Shown one piece after another: positions 1 to 15,161 of a stretch of DNA of 20,493 bases; within the stretch, counting starts at the first letter, position 1; every line of letters starts with the position of its first letter. The translations under genes and the position numbers were made by a program. The DNA is from a virus, in IMG/VR virus record IMGVR_UViG_3300031697_000220, positions 1 through 20,493 of that record, one strand, 5' to 3'. The notes beneath the pieces are model-generated. The model had not been told where the DNA came from. It made no database searches and was given only the letters and a program-made list of their open reading frames with translations.

Positions 1-150
1 CTGGCGAAATCTGAAATCTGGCTTTTTCCATATGATTTCAGAAGCTTGGAAGGTCCTTTCCAGATTTCGGAAGGGTGTTTCCGAAATCTGCTCCGCAATC
101 TGGATTTGCTCAACAAAATCAGTGACCTGCGCCAGATTTCAGATTTCAGA
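1..150. repeat. Iteron-like cluster of CAGATTTC octamers
   Basis: The octamer CAGATTTC, or its complement GAAATCTG, occurs at 6-13, 13-20, 61-68, 83-90, 133-140 and 140-147, with a related GATTTCAGA at 34-42. The outer pairs form a perfect 17-nt inverted repeat: 6-22 against 131-147 (GCCAGATTTCAGATTTC). The inner pair forms a 12-nt inverted repeat, 61-72 against 79-90. Both are centred near position 76, so the block is a nested quasi-palindrome. No gene is apparent here. Such clusters usually bind a replication initiator or a phage repressor, which is inference. The copies are visible directly. Confidence 0.7.
61..90. other. Perfect 12-bp stem-loop inside the octamer cluster
   Basis: CAGATTTCGGAA at 61-72 pairs with TTCCGAAATCTG at 79-90 around a 6-nt loop (GGGTGT). 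There is no T-tract on either side, so a simple intrinsic terminator is unlikely. It may be a DNA dyad bound by a protein or a single-strand cruciform site. Confidence 0.6.
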
Positions 151-155
151 AAAGT

Positions 156-215
156 CCCCCCTAAAGGGGTAGGTGTCCTCCCCGCTAAAGGCGGGGAGAG
201 CCACCACCTACCCCT
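156..215. promoter_or_regulatory. Two consecutive GC hairpins with shared CTAAAGG core, nested in a long stem
   Basis: CCCC-TAAA-GGGG at 158-169 is a short dyad. CTCCCCGC at 178-185 pairs with GCGGGGAG at 191-198 around the loop TAAAG. An outer 11-bp stem, 165-175 with 205-215, encloses the second hairpin and competes with the first, because 166-169 is used by both. The two structures are therefore mutually exclusive, as in a switch or attenuator. The block lies 71 nt before the first ATG of the operon. Function is unknown; an origin, leader-RNA control or protein binding site are all possible. Confidence 0.5.
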
Positions 216-285
216 GGGCAATTTCTCGGGTCGTAGTCTGACCCGTTCCACCCCTCGAGCAGCCAACCACAAAAGGACAAAGCCC

Positions 286-822
286 ATGGCGGACCAATCC
301 ATGACCAACCCGAATCAGGAAACAGATCAAATGTTGCCGCCTGCGTTTGCCGGTCAGCGCACATTGCTCGCGCTCGATCTCGGCACAACCACGGGCTGGG
401 CGCTGCATGGCACCGACGGGCTGATCACCAGCGGGACAGCATCGTTCCGCAATGGCCGGTTCGATGGTGGTGGGATGCGATACCTGCGCTTCACGAACTG
501 GCTGGGCGAGTTGGAGCGGTTGTCCGGTCCCATCGCTGCCATCTGGTTCGAGGAGGTCCGACGCCATGCCGGGACGGATGCAGCGCATGTCTACGGCGGT
601 CTGATGGCCACGTTGACGGCATGGTCCGAACTTCGGGGCGTGCCCTATGCGGGCGTTCCCGTCGGCACGATCAAGCGCCATGCCACCGGCAAGGGCAACG
701 CCAACAAGGACGCCATGATCGCAGCTGCCCGGGCGCGCGGCTTTAGCCCCGCCGACGACAACGAAGCCGACGCCATCGCGATCCTGCTCTGGGCCATGGA
801 AACCCACGGAGGTGCGCAATGA
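286..822 (+). CDS. RuvC-like phage Holliday-junction resolvase
   Basis: A 178-residue protein of the RNase H-fold RuvC type, which would cleave branched DNA produced by phage replication or recombination before packaging. Visible landmarks are LALDLGTTTGW at residues 28-38 (first catalytic Asp, D31), the FEE motif at 88-90 (second acid) and DDNEADAIAIL at 157-167 (terminal acids). The length suits the family. The frame is open further upstream to a TTG at 46, but ATG 286 is preferred because AAAGGAC at 272-278 is a reasonable ribosome binding site and the resolvase fold begins soon after. It opens a tightly overlapping early operon: its stop shares ATGA with the next gene. The exact substrate preference is inferred. 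Confidence 0.85.
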   Translation: MADQSMTNPNQETDQMLPPAFAGQRTLLALDLGTTTGWALHGTDGLITSGTASFRNGRFDGGGMRYLRFTNWLGELERLSGPIAAIWFEEVRRHAGTDAAHVYGGLMATLTAWSELRGVPYAGVPVGTIKRHATGKGNANKDAMIAAARARGFSPADDNEADAIAILLWAMETHGGAQ

Positions 823-1022
823 CCGGAATGCGCTTCACACCCAAGGGCTATGGCGGCAATCGTCGCCAGCCCGACGAGGTCAAACGGGACGGCTGGAAGG
901 AACAAGGGCTGCTGGCCGTCGCAATTGACGATGACCGGCTGACCTGGCCTGAGCGCGAATTGGTGCGCCAGCTTGGCGAGCGCCTTTACGGCAAGCGGGA
1001 ACGGGAGGCACGCCATGGGTGA
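819..1022 (+). CDS. Small uncharacterised phage protein
   Basis: This 67-residue, highly charged protein (many Arg, Lys, Glu and Asp) has no motif I recognise and no membrane segment. It starts at an ATG overlapping the resolvase stop (ATGA at 819-822). Its own stop lies inside the start region of the DUF6362 gene, with an overlap of 8 nt. That tight overlap on both sides, and the strong GC third positions, support it as a real gene in the same transcript. The role is unknown. Confidence 0.65.
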   Translation: MTGMRFTPKGYGGNRRQPDEVKRDGWKEQGLLAVAIDDDRLTWPERELVRQLGERLYGKREREARHG

Positions 1023-1461
1023 GTGGACAACAGCGCGGGTCGAGGATCGGCTGGAGAGCGCGGCCGACGTCTTCCGCACCTTGCCCGGCGTCATGCCGCA
1101 GGGCTTCTTCAACGCATGGCCTGAATATTTCCACAGCTTCGCGGACAAGGTCGGTCAGGAGCCGCAGATGCGGCAGCCCCGGCCGGGTCCGCGCCAGATC
1201 ACCGAAGCTGAGGAGGCATTGCTCTGGTTGCGCTGGCTGGAACGGGACGATGCCCGGATCGTCTGGCTGCGTGCCGAACGCACGCAGTGGAAACCGATCT
1301 GCTGGGAGATGGGGATCAGCCGCCCGGCGGCCAACCGCCATTGGCAATACGGCGTCGCGCTGATCACTTGGCGGCTCAATGGTCGCGTGCCGCCTTCGAA
1401 GCGGTCGCAGCGCTTCGTGGTCAAGAACGCGAACAACCTGTCAAGAAAAATCGTCCTGTGA
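1015..1461 (+). CDS. DUF6362 family protein with a helix-turn-helix-like segment
   Basis: A 148-residue protein recognised as DUF6362, a family common in phages of Rhodobacterales and relatives and of unknown function. The C-terminal half, roughly residues 65-120, contains a predicted helix-turn-helix (WKPICWEMGISRPAANRHW), so DNA binding is plausible. The ATG at 1015 was chosen over upstream in-frame codons because it overlaps the preceding gene in the usual ATG...TGA manner and starts the conserved region. The last residues (NNLSRKIVL) look unlike the rest and are followed by a 395-nt non-coding stretch, so the 3' end may have been altered by recombination. Confidence 0.75.
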   Translation: MGEWTTARVEDRLESAADVFRTLPGVMPQGFFNAWPEYFHSFADKVGQEPQMRQPRPGPRQITEAEEALLWLRWLERDDARIVWLRAERTQWKPICWEMGISRPAANRHWQYGVALITWRLNGRVPPSKRSQRFVVKNANNLSRKIVL

Positions 1462-1856
1462 CAGAATTTTCAGTGAGACATCGCAAAGGGTTACAGTTTC
1501 CGGCTGAGAGGCTACAAATTGGATATACTCGGGAGAGGAGCGCGCAGGCAAAGGCCTCGCAGCTGGCTTCCGGGGTCCATCAAAGGGTCCATATGGGGTC
1601 CAGGTCGCTAACCCACTGAATTCGCGGGTCCTTCCTGGCCCGAAACGTATACGGGCGGGCGAAGCGCGCAATATCGCTAGCGACAGGGCCGGTTTTTTGG
1701 GAAGCCACCCCGGTCGGAATCCACCCGCGACCTGCTGAAAACCACAACAAAACAAACCTTTGGCACCGGACACGCCCGGTGGCCGCTGGACACTTCGCGG
1801 AGTCCAGGCTGGCTGCCGGTGTCCGGAGTCCACCCGAGTGAGGCAAACCGAACCGC
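1462..1856. other. 395-nt intergenic stretch with several dyads, no convincing gene
   Basis: No open frame here has good codon use or a ribosome binding site. Visible structure includes three GGGTCCA copies (1573-1602), the palindromes CGTATACG (1646-1653) and TCGCTAGCGA (1674-1683), and two GGAGTCC copies (1799-1805 and 1825-1831). A TATACT hexamer at 1524-1529 lacks a clear partner -35. The stretch separates DUF6362 from the methyltransferase genes and may hold their promoter and control sites. Confidence 0.4.
1573..1602. repeat. Three phased GGGTCCA repeats
   Basis: GGGTCCAT occurs at 1573-1580 and 1585-1592, and GGGTCCA at 1596-1602. The spacings are 12 and 11 nt, close to one helical turn, so a protein could contact the same face of the DNA at each copy. 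A further GGGTCCAT lies at 13829-13836, upstream of the reverse-strand cargo gene. Possible operator; no regulator is identified. Confidence 0.4.
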
Positions 1857-3110
1857 ATGACCCTGAGTTTTGCCCCGGACGCGATCGAGATGTGGCCGCT
1901 GGCGAGGCTCCAGCCCTATGCGAACAACGCCAAGACACATGGCGCGGACCAAGTCGCGAAGATCGCCGCCAGCATGGCCGAGTTCGGCTGGACGGTGCCC
2001 TGCCTCGTCGCCGAGGACGGCGAACTGATCGCGGGGCACGGGCGCGTGCTGGCCGCAACGCAGCTGGGGCTGGCCGAGGCGCCGGTAATCGTGCTGGGCC
2101 ATCTGACCGAGGCGCAGCGGCGGGCCTACCGGATCGCCGACAACAAGCTCACCGAACTCGGGACCTGGGATGAGGCGCTGCTCTCGGCCGAACTGAACGA
2201 TTTGCTGGCCGACGACTACGACCTGTCGCTGATCGGCTTCGATGACGCGGAACTCGAGGCCCTGTTGGCTGGAGAGGTCGATCCTGAAGCCGCCTCCCGC
2301 GAGGGCGAGGACGATGTTCCCGAACCGCCTGAAACTCCGATCAGCCGTCCCGGCGATCTTTGGGTGCTTGGCAAGCACCGACTGCTCTGCGGTGACGCCA
2401 CCGTGGCCACCGATGTCGAGCGTCTGCTGGGTGATGTGAAGCCGCAACTGATGGTGACCGATCCGCCTTACGGCGTGGAATACGATCCCGGCTGGCGCAA
2501 CAAGGCAGGGGCTGCTGCAACCAAGCGCACCGGCAAGGTGCTGAACGACGACCGCGCCGATTGGCGCGAGGCCTGGGCGTTGTTCCCGGGCGATGTGGCC
2601 TATGTCTGGCACGGCGCGCTGCACGCGACCACGGTTACTGACAGCCTTGAGGCATCCGGCTTCAACATCCGATCGCAGATCATCTGGGCCAAGGACCGTC
2701 TGGTGCTGAGCCGCGGCGATTATCACTGGCAGCATGAACCCTGCCTCTACGCCGTGAAAAAGACCGGCAAAGGACACTGGGCGGGTGACCGCAAGCAGAC
2801 TACGCTCTGGCAGATCGCAAACAAGGATCAGGATGCGGAAACCGTGCACGGGACGCAGAAGCCCGTCGAATGCATGCGCCGGCCAATCCTGAACAATTCC
2901 AGCCCGGGTCAGGCGATTTACGAGCCCTTCATGGGGTCAGGCACCACGCTGATCGCGGCCGAGACCACCGGTCGCGTATGCCTCGGAATCGAACTGAACC
3001 CGGCCTATGTCGATGTCGCCGTGGAGCGGTGGCAGCATTTTACGGGCCAGTCGGCCGTGCTGGACGGAACCGGCCAGACCTTCGCCGATCTGGCGACAAA
3101 CCCACGCTGA
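1857..3110 (+). CDS. ParB-domain DNA methyltransferase (N6-adenine or N4-cytosine, beta class)
   Basis: This 417-residue two-domain protein would methylate exocyclic amino groups in DNA using S-adenosylmethionine. Residues about 10-135 form a ParB/Srx-like domain (AGHGRVLAA around 59-67, then RAYRIADNKLTELG). The methylase domain follows: catalytic TDPPYG at 201-206, then the SAM-binding FMGSGTT at 358-364. DPPY before FxGxG is the beta-class order. The fusion is widespread in prophages, where it probably protects phage DNA from host restriction or marks it. ATG 1857 fits the conserved N-terminus; GAGTGAGG upstream is rather distant. Only 3 nt separate it from the C5-methyltransferase, so the two are likely co-translated. 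Target base and site cannot be read from sequence. Confidence 0.9.
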   Translation: MTLSFAPDAIEMWPLARLQPYANNAKTHGADQVAKIAASMAEFGWTVPCLVAEDGELIAGHGRVLAATQLGLAEAPVIVLGHLTEAQRRAYRIADNKLTELGTWDEALLSAELNDLLADDYDLSLIGFDDAELEALLAGEVDPEAASREGEDDVPEPPETPISRPGDLWVLGKHRLLCGDATVATDVERLLGDVKPQLMVTDPPYGVEYDPGWRNKAGAAATKRTGKVLNDDRADWREAWALFPGDVAYVWHGALHATTVTDSLEASGFNIRSQIIWAKDRLVLSRGDYHWQHEPCLYAVKKTGKGHWAGDRKQTTLWQIANKDQDAETVHGTQKPVECMRRPILNNSSPGQAIYEPFMGSGTTLIAAETTGRVCLGIELNPAYVDVAVERWQHFTGQSAVLDGTGQTFADLATNPR

Positions 3111-3113
3111 GGC

Positions 3114-4295
3114 ATGCATGACCTGGCTTTACATCCCTCCGGACTTGGCTCCGGAGCCGCAGACGCATGCCTGTTCGGCCTCTCCCTCTGCTCCGGCGCA
3201 GGCGGTCTCGACCTCGGGCTTGCCATCGCCTTGCCCGGATATCGAACTGTGGGCCATGTCGAATGGGAAACCTACGCCGCAGCCACTCTCGTGGCGCGGA
3301 TGGAAGACGCGTCCTTGGATTGCGCGCCTGTCTGGGACGACGTTGCCAGCTTCGACGGCCGCCCTTGGCGCGGCGCGGTGGACATCGTCACTGCGGGCTA
3401 TCCGTGCCAGCCGTTCTCCGTCGCGGGAAAACGCCGGGGTGCCGACGACCCGCGCCACCTCTGGCCGCATGTCGCCCGCATCATCGGCGAGTGCGAGCCG
3501 CCCTTCGTCTTCCTCGAGAATGTCGCCCATCATCTCCGCCTCGGCTTTCCTGAAGTCGCCAGCGGACTGGTCGGCATGGGCTACAAGCTTGCGGCAGGCC
3601 TCTTTACGGCGGCGGAAGTCGGTGCGCCGCACAAGCGCGAGCGGCTGTTCATCCTCGCCATCCGCGAGGGGAACGAGTTGGCCGACCCCGCGCGCCTGCT
3701 CTGGCACCCGGTCGAGTGGCGGGAACCGGACCGAGATGTTGAGAATGTGGCCGACGCCTCGCGCCAGCGCCAACGAGAACCGGCAGACGAAACCGACACC
3801 GTCGCAGGCAGCGGGCAAGCATGGGATGAACCTGGCGACCACGGCCGCGATGTGGCCGACGCCGCAGACGGACAGTTTCCGGAGCCGGGGCGGAGATCGC
3901 AAACACGAGAAGGGTCTGGACGGGATGGCCCGGGACTGGCCGACGCCGATGGCGAACGACGGGTGCAAGCCGAGCGCGGGCAATCGCAAGACGGCCGATC
4001 TGACCCATGCCAGCCGCATGTGGATGACGCCGACGGCGCGCGATCACAAGGATGGGGCGACGACATTGGCGAACACGCCTGTGAACGGCCTGCTTGGCCG
4101 CCAGGTCCTGGTGACGCCGATGGCTGGGAACGATACCTCCGATGTGCGCCGGACCTTGAACCCGCTGTTCGTCGAGGCGCTGATGGGCTGGCCCACCGGG
4201 TGGACCGGCTTCGCCTCTGTGGCAACGGCGTGGTCCCCCTGGTTGCAGCGCATGCGCTTCGAACTCTCGCAGCTGAACTGCTGGCCGATGGATGA
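3114..4295 (+). CDS. C5-cytosine DNA methyltransferase (Dcm-like)
   Basis: A 393-residue C5-cytosine methyltransferase. Motif I is LCSGAGGLDLGL (25-36), motif IV with the catalytic cysteine is GYPCQPFS (95-102, Cys98), motif VI is ENV (135-137), motif VIII is HKRERLFIL (173-181), and motif X is CGNGVVPLVA near 369-378. The target-recognition part between VIII and X is acidic, repetitive and rich in ADADG-type words. The gene follows the ParB-methylase directly. Oddities: its ATG sits only 1 nt after the GAGG (3109-3112), which is too close for a normal start. From about 3735 onward its third-position GC drops to about 61% in a 70-codon hand count, while the +1 frame rises to 84%. All essential motifs are intact, so activity is plausible. 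Confidence 0.85.
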   Translation: MHDLALHPSGLGSGAADACLFGLSLCSGAGGLDLGLAIALPGYRTVGHVEWETYAAATLVARMEDASLDCAPVWDDVASFDGRPWRGAVDIVTAGYPCQPFSVAGKRRGADDPRHLWPHVARIIGECEPPFVFLENVAHHLRLGFPEVASGLVGMGYKLAAGLFTAAEVGAPHKRERLFILAIREGNELADPARLLWHPVEWREPDRDVENVADASRQRQREPADETDTVAGSGQAWDEPGDHGRDVADAADGQFPEPGRRSQTREGSGRDGPGLADADGERRVQAERGQSQDGRSDPCQPHVDDADGARSQGWGDDIGEHACERPAWPPGPGDADGWERYLRCAPDLEPAVRRGADGLAHRVDRLRLCGNGVVPLVAAHALRTLAAELLADG

Positions 4296-5497: not shown

Positions 5498-6070
5498 TCA
5501 GGCCACAGGCAGCTTGTACACGCGCCCCCTATCCTCGATCTTCTCCGAGGTCACCTCGAGCCCGAGCTTCTTCTTCAGGGCCCCGGCCATCGCGCCGCGC
5601 ACCGTGTGCGACTGCCAGCCCGTCGCGGCCATGATCTCCTCGATGGTCGCGCCGTCCGGCGCGCGCAGCATGGCGATCAGCATCGCCTGCTTGGTGCCCT
5701 CGCGCGGCGTGCGCGTCTCGGGCGCGGCCTTCGGTTTGGTGAGGGTGTCCTGCGTGGGCTCCTCGGTCGGCGCGTCCGTCGCGCCTGCAGGCGCGGTGTT
5801 CGCGTCCTCGGGCTCGATGCCGATAGCGGCGAGGCCTGCGTCGGTGGCGATCAGCGTGACGCCGTGGCCGTCGCCGGTCTCGCGCCAGACGGGCTCGCCA
5901 TTGCGAGTGTTCGCCTCGACCTCTTCGAGGAAACCTTTGGCGATCATGGTACTGACCACTTTGGTGGCGGCACCGCCGCGCAGGCTGTCGGGTAACGGCA
6001 AAGCGATCAGGTCGTCGCGTTGGGATGCGGCGCTGAGGATGATCGCCTGGGTGTCGGAAATCTTGGTCAT
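5498..6070 (-). CDS. DUF3489 family protein
   Basis: A 190-residue protein on the reverse strand. The C-terminal part, about residues 120-188 (TREGTKQAMLIAMLRAPDGATIEEIMAATGWQSHTVRGAMAGALKKKLG), is the DUF3489 domain, a winged-helix-like fold that suggests DNA binding. The N-terminal 75 residues form a second helical region, and a Pro/Ala/Thr-rich acidic linker joins them. AAGGAG about 8 nt upstream of the ATG complement at 6068-6070 is a good ribosome binding site. It is the only leftward gene between the early block and the late operon, and is transcribed away from the terminase. A regulatory role is possible but not shown. Confidence 0.8.
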   Translation of the reverse strand: MTKISDTQAIILSAASQRDDLIALPLPDSLRGGAATKVVSTMIAKGFLEEVEANTRNGEPVWRETGDGHGVTLIATDAGLAAIGIEPEDANTAPAGATDAPTEEPTQDTLTKPKAAPETRTPREGTKQAMLIAMLRAPDGATIEEIMAATGWQSHTVRGAMAGALKKKLGLEVTSEKIEDRGRVYKLPVA

Positions 6071-9017: not shown

Positions 9018-10613
9018 ATGGGCCTGTTTGATCGTTTCCGTCGCCCATCCTCGGGCGGCCCGGCAGCCGTGTCAGCGCGCCTCGAAGGCGCGATGGCCCG
9101 GCGGCGGCTTCGCGGCTGGAACCCGCCGCTGGAAAACATCAATTCGCTGGTCGCCTCGGGCGGTCCACGCCTGCTGGCGCGGTCGCGCGAACTGGTCGTG
9201 ACCAATGGCTATGCCGCCAATGCCTGTGAGGCATTTGCATCAAACCTGGTGGGCGATGGCATCAAGCCCTCGTCGCTTATCACGGATGCGGCGTTGCGTG
9301 ACAGCGTTCAGCAGCTCTGGCTCGCATGGACCGACGAGGCGGATGCGGATGGACTGACCGATTTCTACGGTCTGCAGGCCATGGTGGCGCGCGAAATGTT
9401 CGTGGCGGGCGAATGCTTCGTGCGTCTGCGTCTCCGCCGCGCCGAGGACAGCCTGCTTGTGCCGATGCAACTGCAGTTGCTCCAGTCGGAGATGCTGCCG
9501 TTCGAGAAGACCGAGACCGCGGCAAATGGCAATCGCATCCGTTGCGGGATTGAATTTGACGCCATCGGACGGCGCGTGGCCTATCATTTTCGCCGTCGCC
9601 ATCCTGGAGACAGCACCGATCAGGGGATGGTGATCCCCGAAACGGTGCGCGTGCCAGCCGACGACGTGCTGCACATCTACCGCCCCATTGACGCAGGCCA
9701 GATCCGTGGCCTGCCGCATGTGGCGCCCGCCATGGTGCGGCTGTTCCTGCTCGACCAATACGACGATGCCGAACTTGACCGCAAGAAAACCGCGGCGATG
9801 TTCGCGGGGTTTATCACCAAGACAGCGCCGGAAGACCCGATGATGGGCGAGGGTGAGGCCACTCTTGATGGCACCGCCATTGCGAGCCTCGAACCCGGCA
9901 CGATGCAGGTTCTGCTACCGGGCGAAGACGTGAAGTTCTCCAGTCCTGCAGATGTTGGGGGCGGCTATGAGGCGTTTCAATACCGAACGCTCTTGTCGGT
10001 ATCAGCCTCGCTGGGGCTGCCGTATCACCTCGTAACCGGGGATGTGCGTCAGGCGAACTATTCGAGCCTGCGGGCAGAGCTGGTCGAGTTCCGCCGCCGC
10101 ATTGGCCAGCTGCAACACGCGGTGATGGCGCACCAGCTGTGCCTTCCGATCTGGCGGCGCTGGCTTGAGACGGCCGTGTTGTCGGGGGCGCTGGATATCG
10201 GTGACCCCGCCGCCGCGCGAGCGGTGCAGTGGATCCCGCCACGCTGGGATTGGGTCGATCCGCTGAAGGACATCCAGGCTCAGGTGCTGGCGATGGAAGC
10301 GGGGATCACCTCACGCCGCAAGGTGGTCGAGGCCACCGGCTATGACGTTGAGGAAGTCGACCGAGAGAATGCGGCAGATGCCAAACGCGTTGCAGATCTG
10401 GGGCTGAGCTACCGCGCGAGCCCTGGCGAAACGCAGGGCGCGCGGGCGACGCCCGCAGCGCGGCCTGATCCTGGAGATGGCACGGGCGAAGACACGGGCC
10501 AAGACACGGGCCAAGACACGGGCAAAGACACGGGCAAAGGCACGGACAAAGGCACGGACAAAGGCACGGGCGACGGATCCGCCTCCACCGATCCCGCCAC
10601 CGAACAGGAGTGA
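9018..10613 (+). CDS. Phage portal protein (lambda gpB type)
   Basis: A 531-residue portal subunit, forming the ring at the capsid vertex through which DNA enters and leaves. The sequence is lambda-type: ENINSLVASGGPRLLARSRELVVTNGYAANACEAFASNLVGDGIKP near the start, VLHIYRPIDAGQIRGLPHVAPAM at about 218-240, and YSSLRAELVEFRRRIG at about 351-366. The last 50 residues are unusual: an 8-unit Thr-Gly-x-Asp tail (TGED, TGQD, TGKD, TDKG variants) encoded by 12-nt tandem repeats. That tail is acidic, probably disordered, and likely variable between relatives. The start lies 3 nt after the joiner gene. Confidence 0.93.
   Translation: MGLFDRFRRPSSGGPAAVSARLEGAMARRRLRGWNPPLENINSLVASGGPRLLARSRELVVTNGYAANACEAFASNLVGDGIKPSSLITDAALRDSVQQLWLAWTDEADADGLTDFYGLQAMVAREMFVAGECFVRLRLRRAEDSLLVPMQLQLLQSEMLPFEKTETAANGNRIRCGIEFDAIGRRVAYHFRRRHPGDSTDQGMVIPETVRVPADDVLHIYRPIDAGQIRGLPHVAPAMVRLFLLDQYDDAELDRKKTAAMFAGFITKTAPEDPMMGEGEATLDGTAIASLEPGTMQVLLPGEDVKFSSPADVGGGYEAFQYRTLLSVSASLGLPYHLVTGDVRQANYSSLRAELVEFRRRIGQLQHAVMAHQLCLPIWRRWLETAVLSGALDIGDPAAARAVQWIPPRWDWVDPLKDIQAQVLAMEAGITSRRKVVEATGYDVEEVDRENAADAKRVADLGLSYRASPGETQGARATPAARPDPGDGTGEDTGQDTGQDTGKDTGKGTDKGTDKGTGDGSASTDPATEQE
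10481..10576 (+). repeat. Eight 12-nt tandem repeats in the portal gene
   Basis: Eight imperfect copies of CACGGGCAAAGA-type units run from 10481 to 10576 and encode a T-G-(E/Q/K/D)-(D/G) series at the portal C-terminus. The unit is a multiple of three, so copy-number change by slippage keeps the frame. In the +1 frame the same DNA reads RAKT repeats, which falsely extends the downstream protease frame. Confidence 0.9.
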
Positions 10614-14505: not shown

Positions 14506-14540
14506 TCGACATGTGGAAGACATTGGCATATATTGCCAAT
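14506..14540 (+). promoter_or_regulatory. Promoter with overlapping palindromic operator for the toxin-antitoxin pair
   Basis: TCGACA (14506-14511) and TATATT (14529-14534), separated by 17 nt, each match the sigma-70 consensus in five of six positions. A perfect 7-5-7 dyad, ATTGGCA (14522-14528), TATAT, TGCCAAT (14534-14540), covers the -10. That is what is expected of an autoregulated ParD-type operator: the antitoxin, or the complex with toxin, would block RNA polymerase. Confidence 0.75.
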
Positions 14541-14559
14541 CACCTGCATGGAGACCTAC

Positions 14560-14817
14560 ATGGCCACGCGAAACGTCGTTCTCACCGATACGCAATCCGA
14601 CCTGGTCGACCAACTGGTCGCATCGGGGCGCTACCAGAACGCCTCGGAAGCCCTGCGGGCGGGCCTTCGGCTGCTCGAACGCGAAGAGAGCGAACTGGGC
14701 GAGTTGCGTTCCCGGCTGCAATCCGGCCTCGAGGAAGCACACAGGGGCGATCTTGCCGAGGGTTCGGGCGAGGACGCCATCCGTCGCGCCTTTGCGGCTG
14801 CGCGCGAAGGGTCCTGA
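14560..14817 (+). CDS. parD: ParD-like antitoxin
   Basis: An 85-residue type II antitoxin. The N-terminal 50 residues form a ribbon-helix-helix DNA-binding domain (RNVVLTDTQSDLVDQLVASGRYQNASEALRAGLRLLE) and the acidic C-terminal tail would wrap around and neutralise the toxin. It binds its own promoter, and a fitting palindrome lies over the -10 just upstream. ATG 14560 with GGAG 6 nt before it is preferred to the ATG at 14548. The stop overlaps the toxin start (TGATG), so the pair is translationally coupled. It is inserted among tail genes and carries its own promoter, so it is independent of late transcription. Confidence 0.9.
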   Translation: MATRNVVLTDTQSDLVDQLVASGRYQNASEALRAGLRLLEREESELGELRSRLQSGLEEAHRGDLAEGSGEDAIRRAFAAAREGS

Positions 14818-15161
14818 TGCCGAAACCGTGGCGGCTGACGCGGGCGGCGGAAGCCTCGCTCATCGATATCGCACGTTGGACGTTCGAGACCTTCGGGCCG
14901 CGACAGGCTGCGGCTTATGAGGAAGATCTGATCGCCGTGTGCCGCGACATCGCGGCGGGAATTGCCTTGTCGCAGGATTGCCGCCGTCTAATCGATCCGT
15001 ACCTGGCCGAGGATCTGCGTTTTTCGCGCTGCGGCCAGCATTTCATCGTGTTTATCGAGGACCTGGATCAGGTGATCATCATTGATTTCCTGCACAGCCG
15101 ATCCGACCTGCCGGGAAAGCTGGCGATGTTGCAGGGTCCAAAACCTTACCGCAACCGTTGA
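14817..15161 (+). CDS. parE: ParE-like toxin (RelE/ParE superfamily)
   Basis: A 114-residue toxin. Signature parts are WRLTRAAEASLIDIARWTFETFGPRQAAAYEEDL at the start and RFSRCGQHFIVFIEDLDQVIIIDFLHSRSDLPGKL at the end, the ParE layout of two helices and a beta-sheet ending with an arginine-containing strand. ParE toxins inhibit DNA gyrase; related RelE toxins cut ribosome-bound mRNA, and the sequence favours the ParE side. It would stabilise the prophage or exclude other phages, which is inference. The start overlaps the antitoxin stop. The length is slightly above the usual 95-100 because of a C-terminal extension (LQGPKPYRNR). Confidence 0.88.
   Translation: MPKPWRLTRAAEASLIDIARWTFETFGPRQAAAYEEDLIAVCRDIAAGIALSQDCRRLIDPYLAEDLRFSRCGQHFIVFIEDLDQVIIIDFLHSRSDLPGKLAMLQGPKPYRNR

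Follow-up and report, generated by a model that had tools for sequence, protein, structure and literature searches.

The alpha protein of P4 has a primase of the Toprim type. According to the portion of PMC4234260 that was available, P4 alpha also unites primase, helicase and winged-helix origin-binding parts in a single protein, and repeats are found at its origin. RSF1010 (IncQ) uses three proteins, RepA, RepB' and RepC, with a RecA-like helicase among its parts, and at its oriV iterons lie beside a pair of small ssi hairpins, one for each strand (excerpts of PMC4234260 and PMC4434180); the ssiA hairpin is bound by RepB' (excerpt of PMC4434180). In pRN1 (ORF904) a stem-loop origin lies 3' of the gene for a primase-helicase-winged helix protein with an SF3 helicase; this stem-loop is essential and conserved in shape at low sequence conservation, the origin is described without iterons, and the accessible text of PMC4234260 compares it with P4 and RSF1010. 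In the PLE replicons of V. cholerae (RepA_N plus iterons), the DNA-binding domain of the initiator covaries with the origin, the rest of the initiator is conserved, modules have been swapped repeatedly, and the N-terminal RepA_N domain forms two specificity groups (partial text of PMC8263062). For Wolbachia phage WO, the available part of PMC9203015 describes no replication origin belonging to the phage itself.

Here we analysed a viral fragment from IMG/VR (the window, which is the whole fragment of 20,493 bases) and find it quite probable that its first 215 bases are most of an iteron replication origin belonging to a phage or prophage of Rhodobacterales, with octamers that would be read by the winged helix of its own primase-helicase. 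Origins of this kind are known; the combination, together with repeated slot-wise switching of the iterons, is new as far as our searches show, and no paper on iteron origins in Rhodobacterales phages or prophages was found in the open-licence literature, some of which was judged by title and the start of the abstract. We regard the proposed origin as a new variant of the P4/RSF1010/pRN1 theme. It shares with P4 the repeats and the single protein of primase, helicase and winged-helix parts, but its primase is of the archaeo-eukaryotic and not the Toprim type, and its helicase matches AAA_25. It resembles RSF1010 in its iterons, RepB'-like primase fold, RecA-like helicase and hairpin beside the iterons, and differs in having one fused protein (the 806-aa ORF, as in the relative L004) and one larger hairpin found; set against the ssi sites, this hairpin is conserved and covarying, with a correlation of about 0.07 to the primase domain. 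With pRN1 it has in common the order of domains in the protein and a stem-loop just 3' of the gene that keeps its shape more than its sequence, whereas here there are iterons and an AAA_25 helicase. The likeness to PLE lies in the covarying DNA-binding domain, the conserved remainder of the initiator and the repeated swapping of modules; here, however, the proposed specificity domain is a predicted C-terminal winged helix on a primase-helicase, there are 13 classes and the iteron has changed in place at fixed slots. Among the phage records searched, the RepA of phage WO is the nearest helicase relative, at 38-50% identity over parts only.

The earlier note on this DNA had described six exact octamers in both orientations within 150 nt, and all of them were located (Table 1), joined by a seventh copy with one mismatch. 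The six exact copies of CAGATTTC lie within the first 147 nt, with zero elsewhere in the window. In 100 dinucleotide-preserving shuffles the copy number averaged 0.64 and never exceeded three, against the six observed, which rules out a chance origin of the array and agrees with that note's view of chance. Its two perfect inverted repeats are likewise exact, an outer one of 17 nt (6-22 and 131-147, centre 76.5) and an inner one of 12 nt (61-72 and 79-90, centre 75.5). The weight it placed on their common centre is, however, unsupported: the 17-nt pair occurs in 0 of 24 relatives of the CAGATTTC motif class, so that the outer symmetry is peculiar to the window within its class and palindromic symmetry was rejected as a conserved trait. 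Both inner 12-mers are present in 11 of the 24. What these 24 relatives conserve instead is copy number and placing, with 5-13 copies (at most one mismatch) per array. Bases 1-150 have a GC content of 0.44, lower than the 0.65 of the window as a whole.

Table 1. Features at the left end of the window, with positions counted from its first base.
Feature	Position	Strand	Remarks
Right-hand two thirds of the iteron array (proposed origin)	1-150	n/a	GC 0.44; octamer copies
Iteron CAGATTTC	6-13	-	exact octamer
Iteron CAGATTTC	13-20	-	exact octamer
First IHF-like site TTTCAGAAGCTTG	36-48	+	2 mismatches to WATCAANNNNTTR
Iteron CAGATTTC	61-68	+	exact octamer
Iteron CAGATTTC	83-90	-	exact octamer
Iteron with one mismatch, CAGATTGC (seventh copy)	95-102	-	
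Second IHF-like site AATCAGTGACCTG	117-129	+	2 mismatches to WATCAANNNNTTR
Iteron CAGATTTC	133-140	+	exact octamer
Iteron CAGATTTC	140-147	+	exact octamer
Short hairpin CCCCCCTAAAGGGG	156-169	+	3' arm is the 5' arm of the long hairpin
Long hairpin	165-215	+	outer stem 165-175/205-215, inner stem 176-186/190-200, 3'-side bulge 201-204
RuvC-like Holliday junction resolvase gene	286-822	+	adjoins the proposed origin on the right in every lineage used

Further along the window, a ParD antitoxin/ParE toxin pair (14533-15161; Pfam 5.5e-12 and 5.6e-9) sits among phage structural genes, and a DUF3489 gene (5498-6070, minus strand; Pfam 2.7e-32) lies on the strand opposite to the adjoining phage genes. 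Two overlapping ORFs in different frames at 10477-10613 both encode short repeated peptides (AKTR.. and TGQD/TGKG..), and this repeat-rich stretch spans the end of one gene and the possible start of the next.

Relatives were collected by scanning viral contigs with the RuvC-like protein, which gave 80 loci. The closest eight that were aligned (L002-L009; RuvC 86-94% identical) all carry the same array, and in 8/8 it extends leftward to a stop codon about 78 nt before base 1 of the window; the contig end thus cuts the array, and its left third (about 78 nt) lies beyond the window. The conserved unit is about a dozen iterons between the gene for an 806-aa primase-helicase and RuvC. The suggestion to look to the left for an initiator or repressor gene leads, in the relatives, to the primase-helicase ORF that adjoins the array; as this gene is outside the window itself, the link between array and helicase rests on them. 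Where the genome collection names a host, it mostly belongs to the Rhodobacterales, e.g., Shimia, Antarctobacter, Oceaniglobus, Palleronia and Paracoccus. In the phage collection, nine records matched at the DNA level, all in the RuvC gene alone, and none matched the array. The Shimia haliotis DSM 28453 genome that holds one of the loci (L199) also has three CAGATTTC octamers within 33 nt on contig C11 (about 103753-103785), perhaps a second array. Mean GC skew shifted from -0.011 over the 4 kb preceding the array to +0.019 over the 4 kb following it, rising across the array in 45/49 loci with enough flank; the loci are related, and the rise lends modest support to the origin reading.

In more distant relatives the gap keeps an array, with a motif other than CAGATTTC; replacement repeats include CAGAACAC, GAGGAGTTA, GGACGAAC, ATGAGGAA, CAGTTTCGG, ATGACAG and CAAATTTC. 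The expectation that relatives would show the same octamer before the resolvase gene therefore holds for close ones and fails for distant ones. Loss of the octamers under an unchanged gene order, which had been named as telling against the array, does occur, but another repeat fills the slots one by one. Repeats were assessed in 74 gaps (76 loci had an upstream ORF, two being skipped because their gaps were short, and four further loci had no ORF). In 60 of them the count of the commonest 8-mer was reached by at most 5 of 100 shuffles, although some control slices of the same loci attain the array's 8-mer count (e.g., 16/63 in L016). The best repeat was not above shuffles in the other 14/74 gaps, 12 of which belong to the ATGAGTTAGG class, with only 3-4 copies per array. 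For the statistics, the RuvC loci were combined with a genome scan and a helicase scan, 236 loci being examined, of which 169 contained the helicase C-terminus in full, 168 had a useful gap length and 129 were distinct. Five were excluded, three by hand for an apparently wrong or broken reading frame or ORF (L078, L241 and L351) and two as the RuvC start was not found (L282 and L349), and average-linkage clustering divided the remaining 124 arrays into 13 motif classes.

Across these 124 arrays (7,626 pairs), motif similarity followed the identity of one segment of the helicase, residues 655-806 (r = 0.82), and neither its other domains (about 0.1; residues 390-640, r = 0.10) nor RuvC (r = 0.13); the partial correlation given residues 390-640 and RuvC was still 0.82. 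Sliding windows place the step at residue 661, rising from 0.21 (621-660) to 0.66 (661-700) and 0.79 (701-740), and within RuvC give 0.26 in the first 45 residues and 0.06 beyond. In 809 pairs with an identity of 93% or more in the helicase domain and 68% or less in the C-terminus, median motif similarity was 0.04; in 266 pairs of the opposite kind, with 85% or less in the helicase domain and 75% or more in the C-terminus, it was 0.87. Compared with L008 or L004, for example, L010, L011 and L012 are about 95% identical to residue 650 and about 45-72% thereafter, and each has its own iteron, L010 belonging to the CAGAACAC class. Motif class changes 12 times on a tree of the C-terminal segment, the minimum for 13 classes, against 51-52 times when the tree is built from the primase or the helicase part and about 82-87 with shuffled labels; the trees were made with FastTree and carry no support values, so that 51 is a rough count of exchanges. 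The match between repeat specificity and the DNA-binding domain of the proposed initiator is one of covariation only, and since C-terminus and array are contiguous, linked inheritance accounts for part of it.

No other phage protein compared tracks the motif above 0.25: besides RuvC these were a ResIII-type helicase (0.25, 50 loci), a Cas4-like nuclease (0.15, 111 loci), a C5 methylase (0.20, 34 loci), and an N6/N4 methylase domain (0.19, 67 loci) and a ParB domain (0.09, 82 loci); terminase was present in four loci only and lay outside the comparison. In the window, a ParB-like domain is fused to an N6/N4 DNA methylase (1857-3110) and directly followed by a C5 cytosine methylase, placing two DNA methylases side by side (1857-4295). 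The partition site offered by the earlier note, that is, parS read by this ParB-domain methyltransferase, is hardly credible in the light of these figures: the domain is nearby and recognised by PHROG matches, with a Pfam ParB_N score of 15.2 bits below the cut-off of 26.3, yet over the same 82 loci the helicase C-terminus reaches 0.86 where the ParB domain gives its 0.09, and the methylase domain fares little better.

Phage repressors also diversify together with their operators. This, and the short clustered sites beside genes, would suit an operator or stoperator array at which a phage repressor silences the surrounding genes, another of the functions originally offered. We consider it very unlikely, as 7 of the 10 exact octamers in the 49-kb L004 record lie inside the one array and are not dispersed at promoters, bases 1-400 of the window hold no sigma-70-like promoter, and the motif follows the C-terminus of the primase-helicase, the only segment found to track it; repressor genes lie outside the loci compared. 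A replication origin was the remaining function put forward, and it is the one to which both the place of the array and the covariation with the C-terminus point.

The way in which motifs replace one another bears further on how array and protein are connected. All 10 iterons of the CAGAATCC array (a single locus, L352) share position and strand with those of CAGATTTC arrays, as do 7/10 in CAGAACAC arrays, whereas controls over 112 shifts averaged 0.7-0.9 coincidences with a maximum of three. Between the CAGATTTC, CAGAATCC and CAGAACAC iterons the CAGA half is retained and the other half exchanged. Switching at fixed slots is more than simple block exchange would produce, and a reader protein with changed specificity explains it. 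It is conceivable that some other host or phage protein binds the array and that the match to the C-terminus reflects neighbouring DNA exchanged as a block; the two are contiguous, and the C-terminus is also followed, if less closely, by the hairpin on the far side of the array (r = 0.62; 10 changes of hairpin type against a minimum of two). Linkage of this sort alone seems an unlikely account nonetheless, since motif class never leaves the C-terminal tree as the neighbouring hairpin does, the other phage proteins compared all stay low, and a joint change at about ten fixed slots calls for a trans-acting reader. Reading of the iterons by the primase-helicase thus remains our preferred explanation.

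The array also contains two approximate matches to WATCAANNNNTTR, the IHF consensus. Exact copies of it number 32 in 33.5 kb of gap and eight in the 648.6 kb that flank these gaps, an enrichment of 77 times in gaps (72 loci, not de-duplicated); the copies in the window are degenerate. They are 81 nt apart, which is about the usual spacing in relatives, and relatives of other motif classes have exact matches to the consensus in the same register as the window's first site.

Between array and RuvC lies the long hairpin, whose pairing and that of the short one are mutually exclusive through their common arm. Across arrays the form is an outer stem of 9-12 bp, a 3'-side bulge of 3-4 nt, an inner stem and a small loop, the bulge being found in 92/126 arrays in a scan run without a control. 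Sequence varies by lineage and pairing is kept: in two sets, of 28 and 27 sequences, 94.5% and 90.7% of cells are paired. Double changes number 10 and 14 in these sets, where shuffling gives 3.4 and 4.1; two other measures, pairs changed on both sides and the number of further pair types, were not clearly above shuffles. As the hairpin shows no correlation with the primase domain (about 0.07), its sequence-specific recognition by that domain is unsupported. By analogy, the hairpin may be a priming site like the ssi sites of RSF1010 or the pRN1 stem-loop, or an RNA element. An element of the RuvC leader RNA in place of a DNA priming site, for example an attenuator or antiterminator built on two exclusive pairings, strikes us as possible, though less likely than not. 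The hairpin's fixed orientation between co-directional genes, the competing short 5' hairpin and the excess of G.T over A.C mismatches on the plus strand (50 against 18, in a search that itself favoured G.T, and not counted as proof) would fit an RNA, while no T-run follows the long hairpin on that strand and Rfam returned no family at gathering score for window 1-1500. A mascRNA-menRNA match of 23.7 bits, against a cut-off of 42.5, was taken as chance. Read on the minus strand, the short hairpin is followed by a T-rich stretch and resembles a terminator for leftward transcription.

The 806-aa protein matches Pfam AAA_25 in its middle and the PHROG family "DNA primase/helicase", and its nearest relatives among 50,697 phage records come from Wolbachia phage WO, where they are annotated as RepA, ATPase or hypothetical. 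Structures were modelled on the L004 protein, a relative of the window's, in which primase, helicase and predicted C-terminal winged helix are combined. AlphaFold2 gave a pTM of 0.37 and a mean pLDDT of 62.6 for the full protein, with confident regions at about residues 66-290 and 662-800 and a poor helicase part; a sequence search of solved structures with the helicase gave nothing useful. Foldseek aligned the N-terminal domain with the PrimPol of cyanophage S-2L (3e-8) and the RepB' primase of RSF1010 (3h20/3h25, 1.5e-7; with initiator DNA, 1.7e-6), and as modelled this domain is of the archaeo-eukaryotic-type (AEP) primase fold. The C-terminal domain modelled alone (pLDDT 83.9, pTM 0.78) has three helices and a wing, with more strands after them, and is predicted to be a winged helix. 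Its Foldseek matches were weak (Fur/PerR/MarR, best E 0.014), as were those among viral models (a phage RepA-type ATPase and a Prim_Pol protein), and VIA likewise gave weak matches, with Z up to 7, to winged helices in general with no single best family. Among the columns most informative of motif class are residue 693, residue 710, where the likely recognition helix begins, and residues 733-741 within the wing region; sequence relatedness inflates such values.

At the same site before RuvC, some distant members carry other, unrelated primase-helicases. L052 and L066 have one of Toprim_3 and VapE, the P4-like primase type, with strong gap repeats; L033 and L063 have Prim-Pol, PriCT_2 and DUF3987 with moderate gap repeats, L045 the same domains with gap repeats not above shuffles, and L076 a D5_N primase-helicase with a weak repeat of three copies. 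Judging from these gene contents, whole initiators also appear to be exchanged at this site.

If the octamers are read as we infer, several copies of the primase-helicase would bind the iterons via their C-terminal winged helices, and the host bending protein IHF, at its two sites, would fold the array. The RecA-like helicase domain would then open the AT-richer array and the N-terminal primase domain would prime, perhaps at the exposed hairpin, after which host replication proteins would take over. We further propose, tentatively and as somewhat less likely than not, a specificity switch: on one scaffold of about ten fixed slots, two IHF-like sites and a hairpin, iterons and winged helix would change jointly to yield at least 13 origin types that do not cross-react. 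Such a switch would act like replication incompatibility groups, with superinfecting relatives, satellites or origin-targeting nucleases as possible drivers, and would provide a natural catalogue of winged helices paired with their DNA sequences. Should the origin reading be right, an origin would be located for a common alphaproteobacterial phage group whose helicase is related to that of Wolbachia phage WO, and the specificity between initiator and origin would have shifted repeatedly, at fixed sites of a single scaffold. Questions for which material is usually scarce would then be testable: how function survives joint change in iterons and their reader, which winged-helix residues read which bases, and whether these origins serve as immunity or incompatibility groups among phages.
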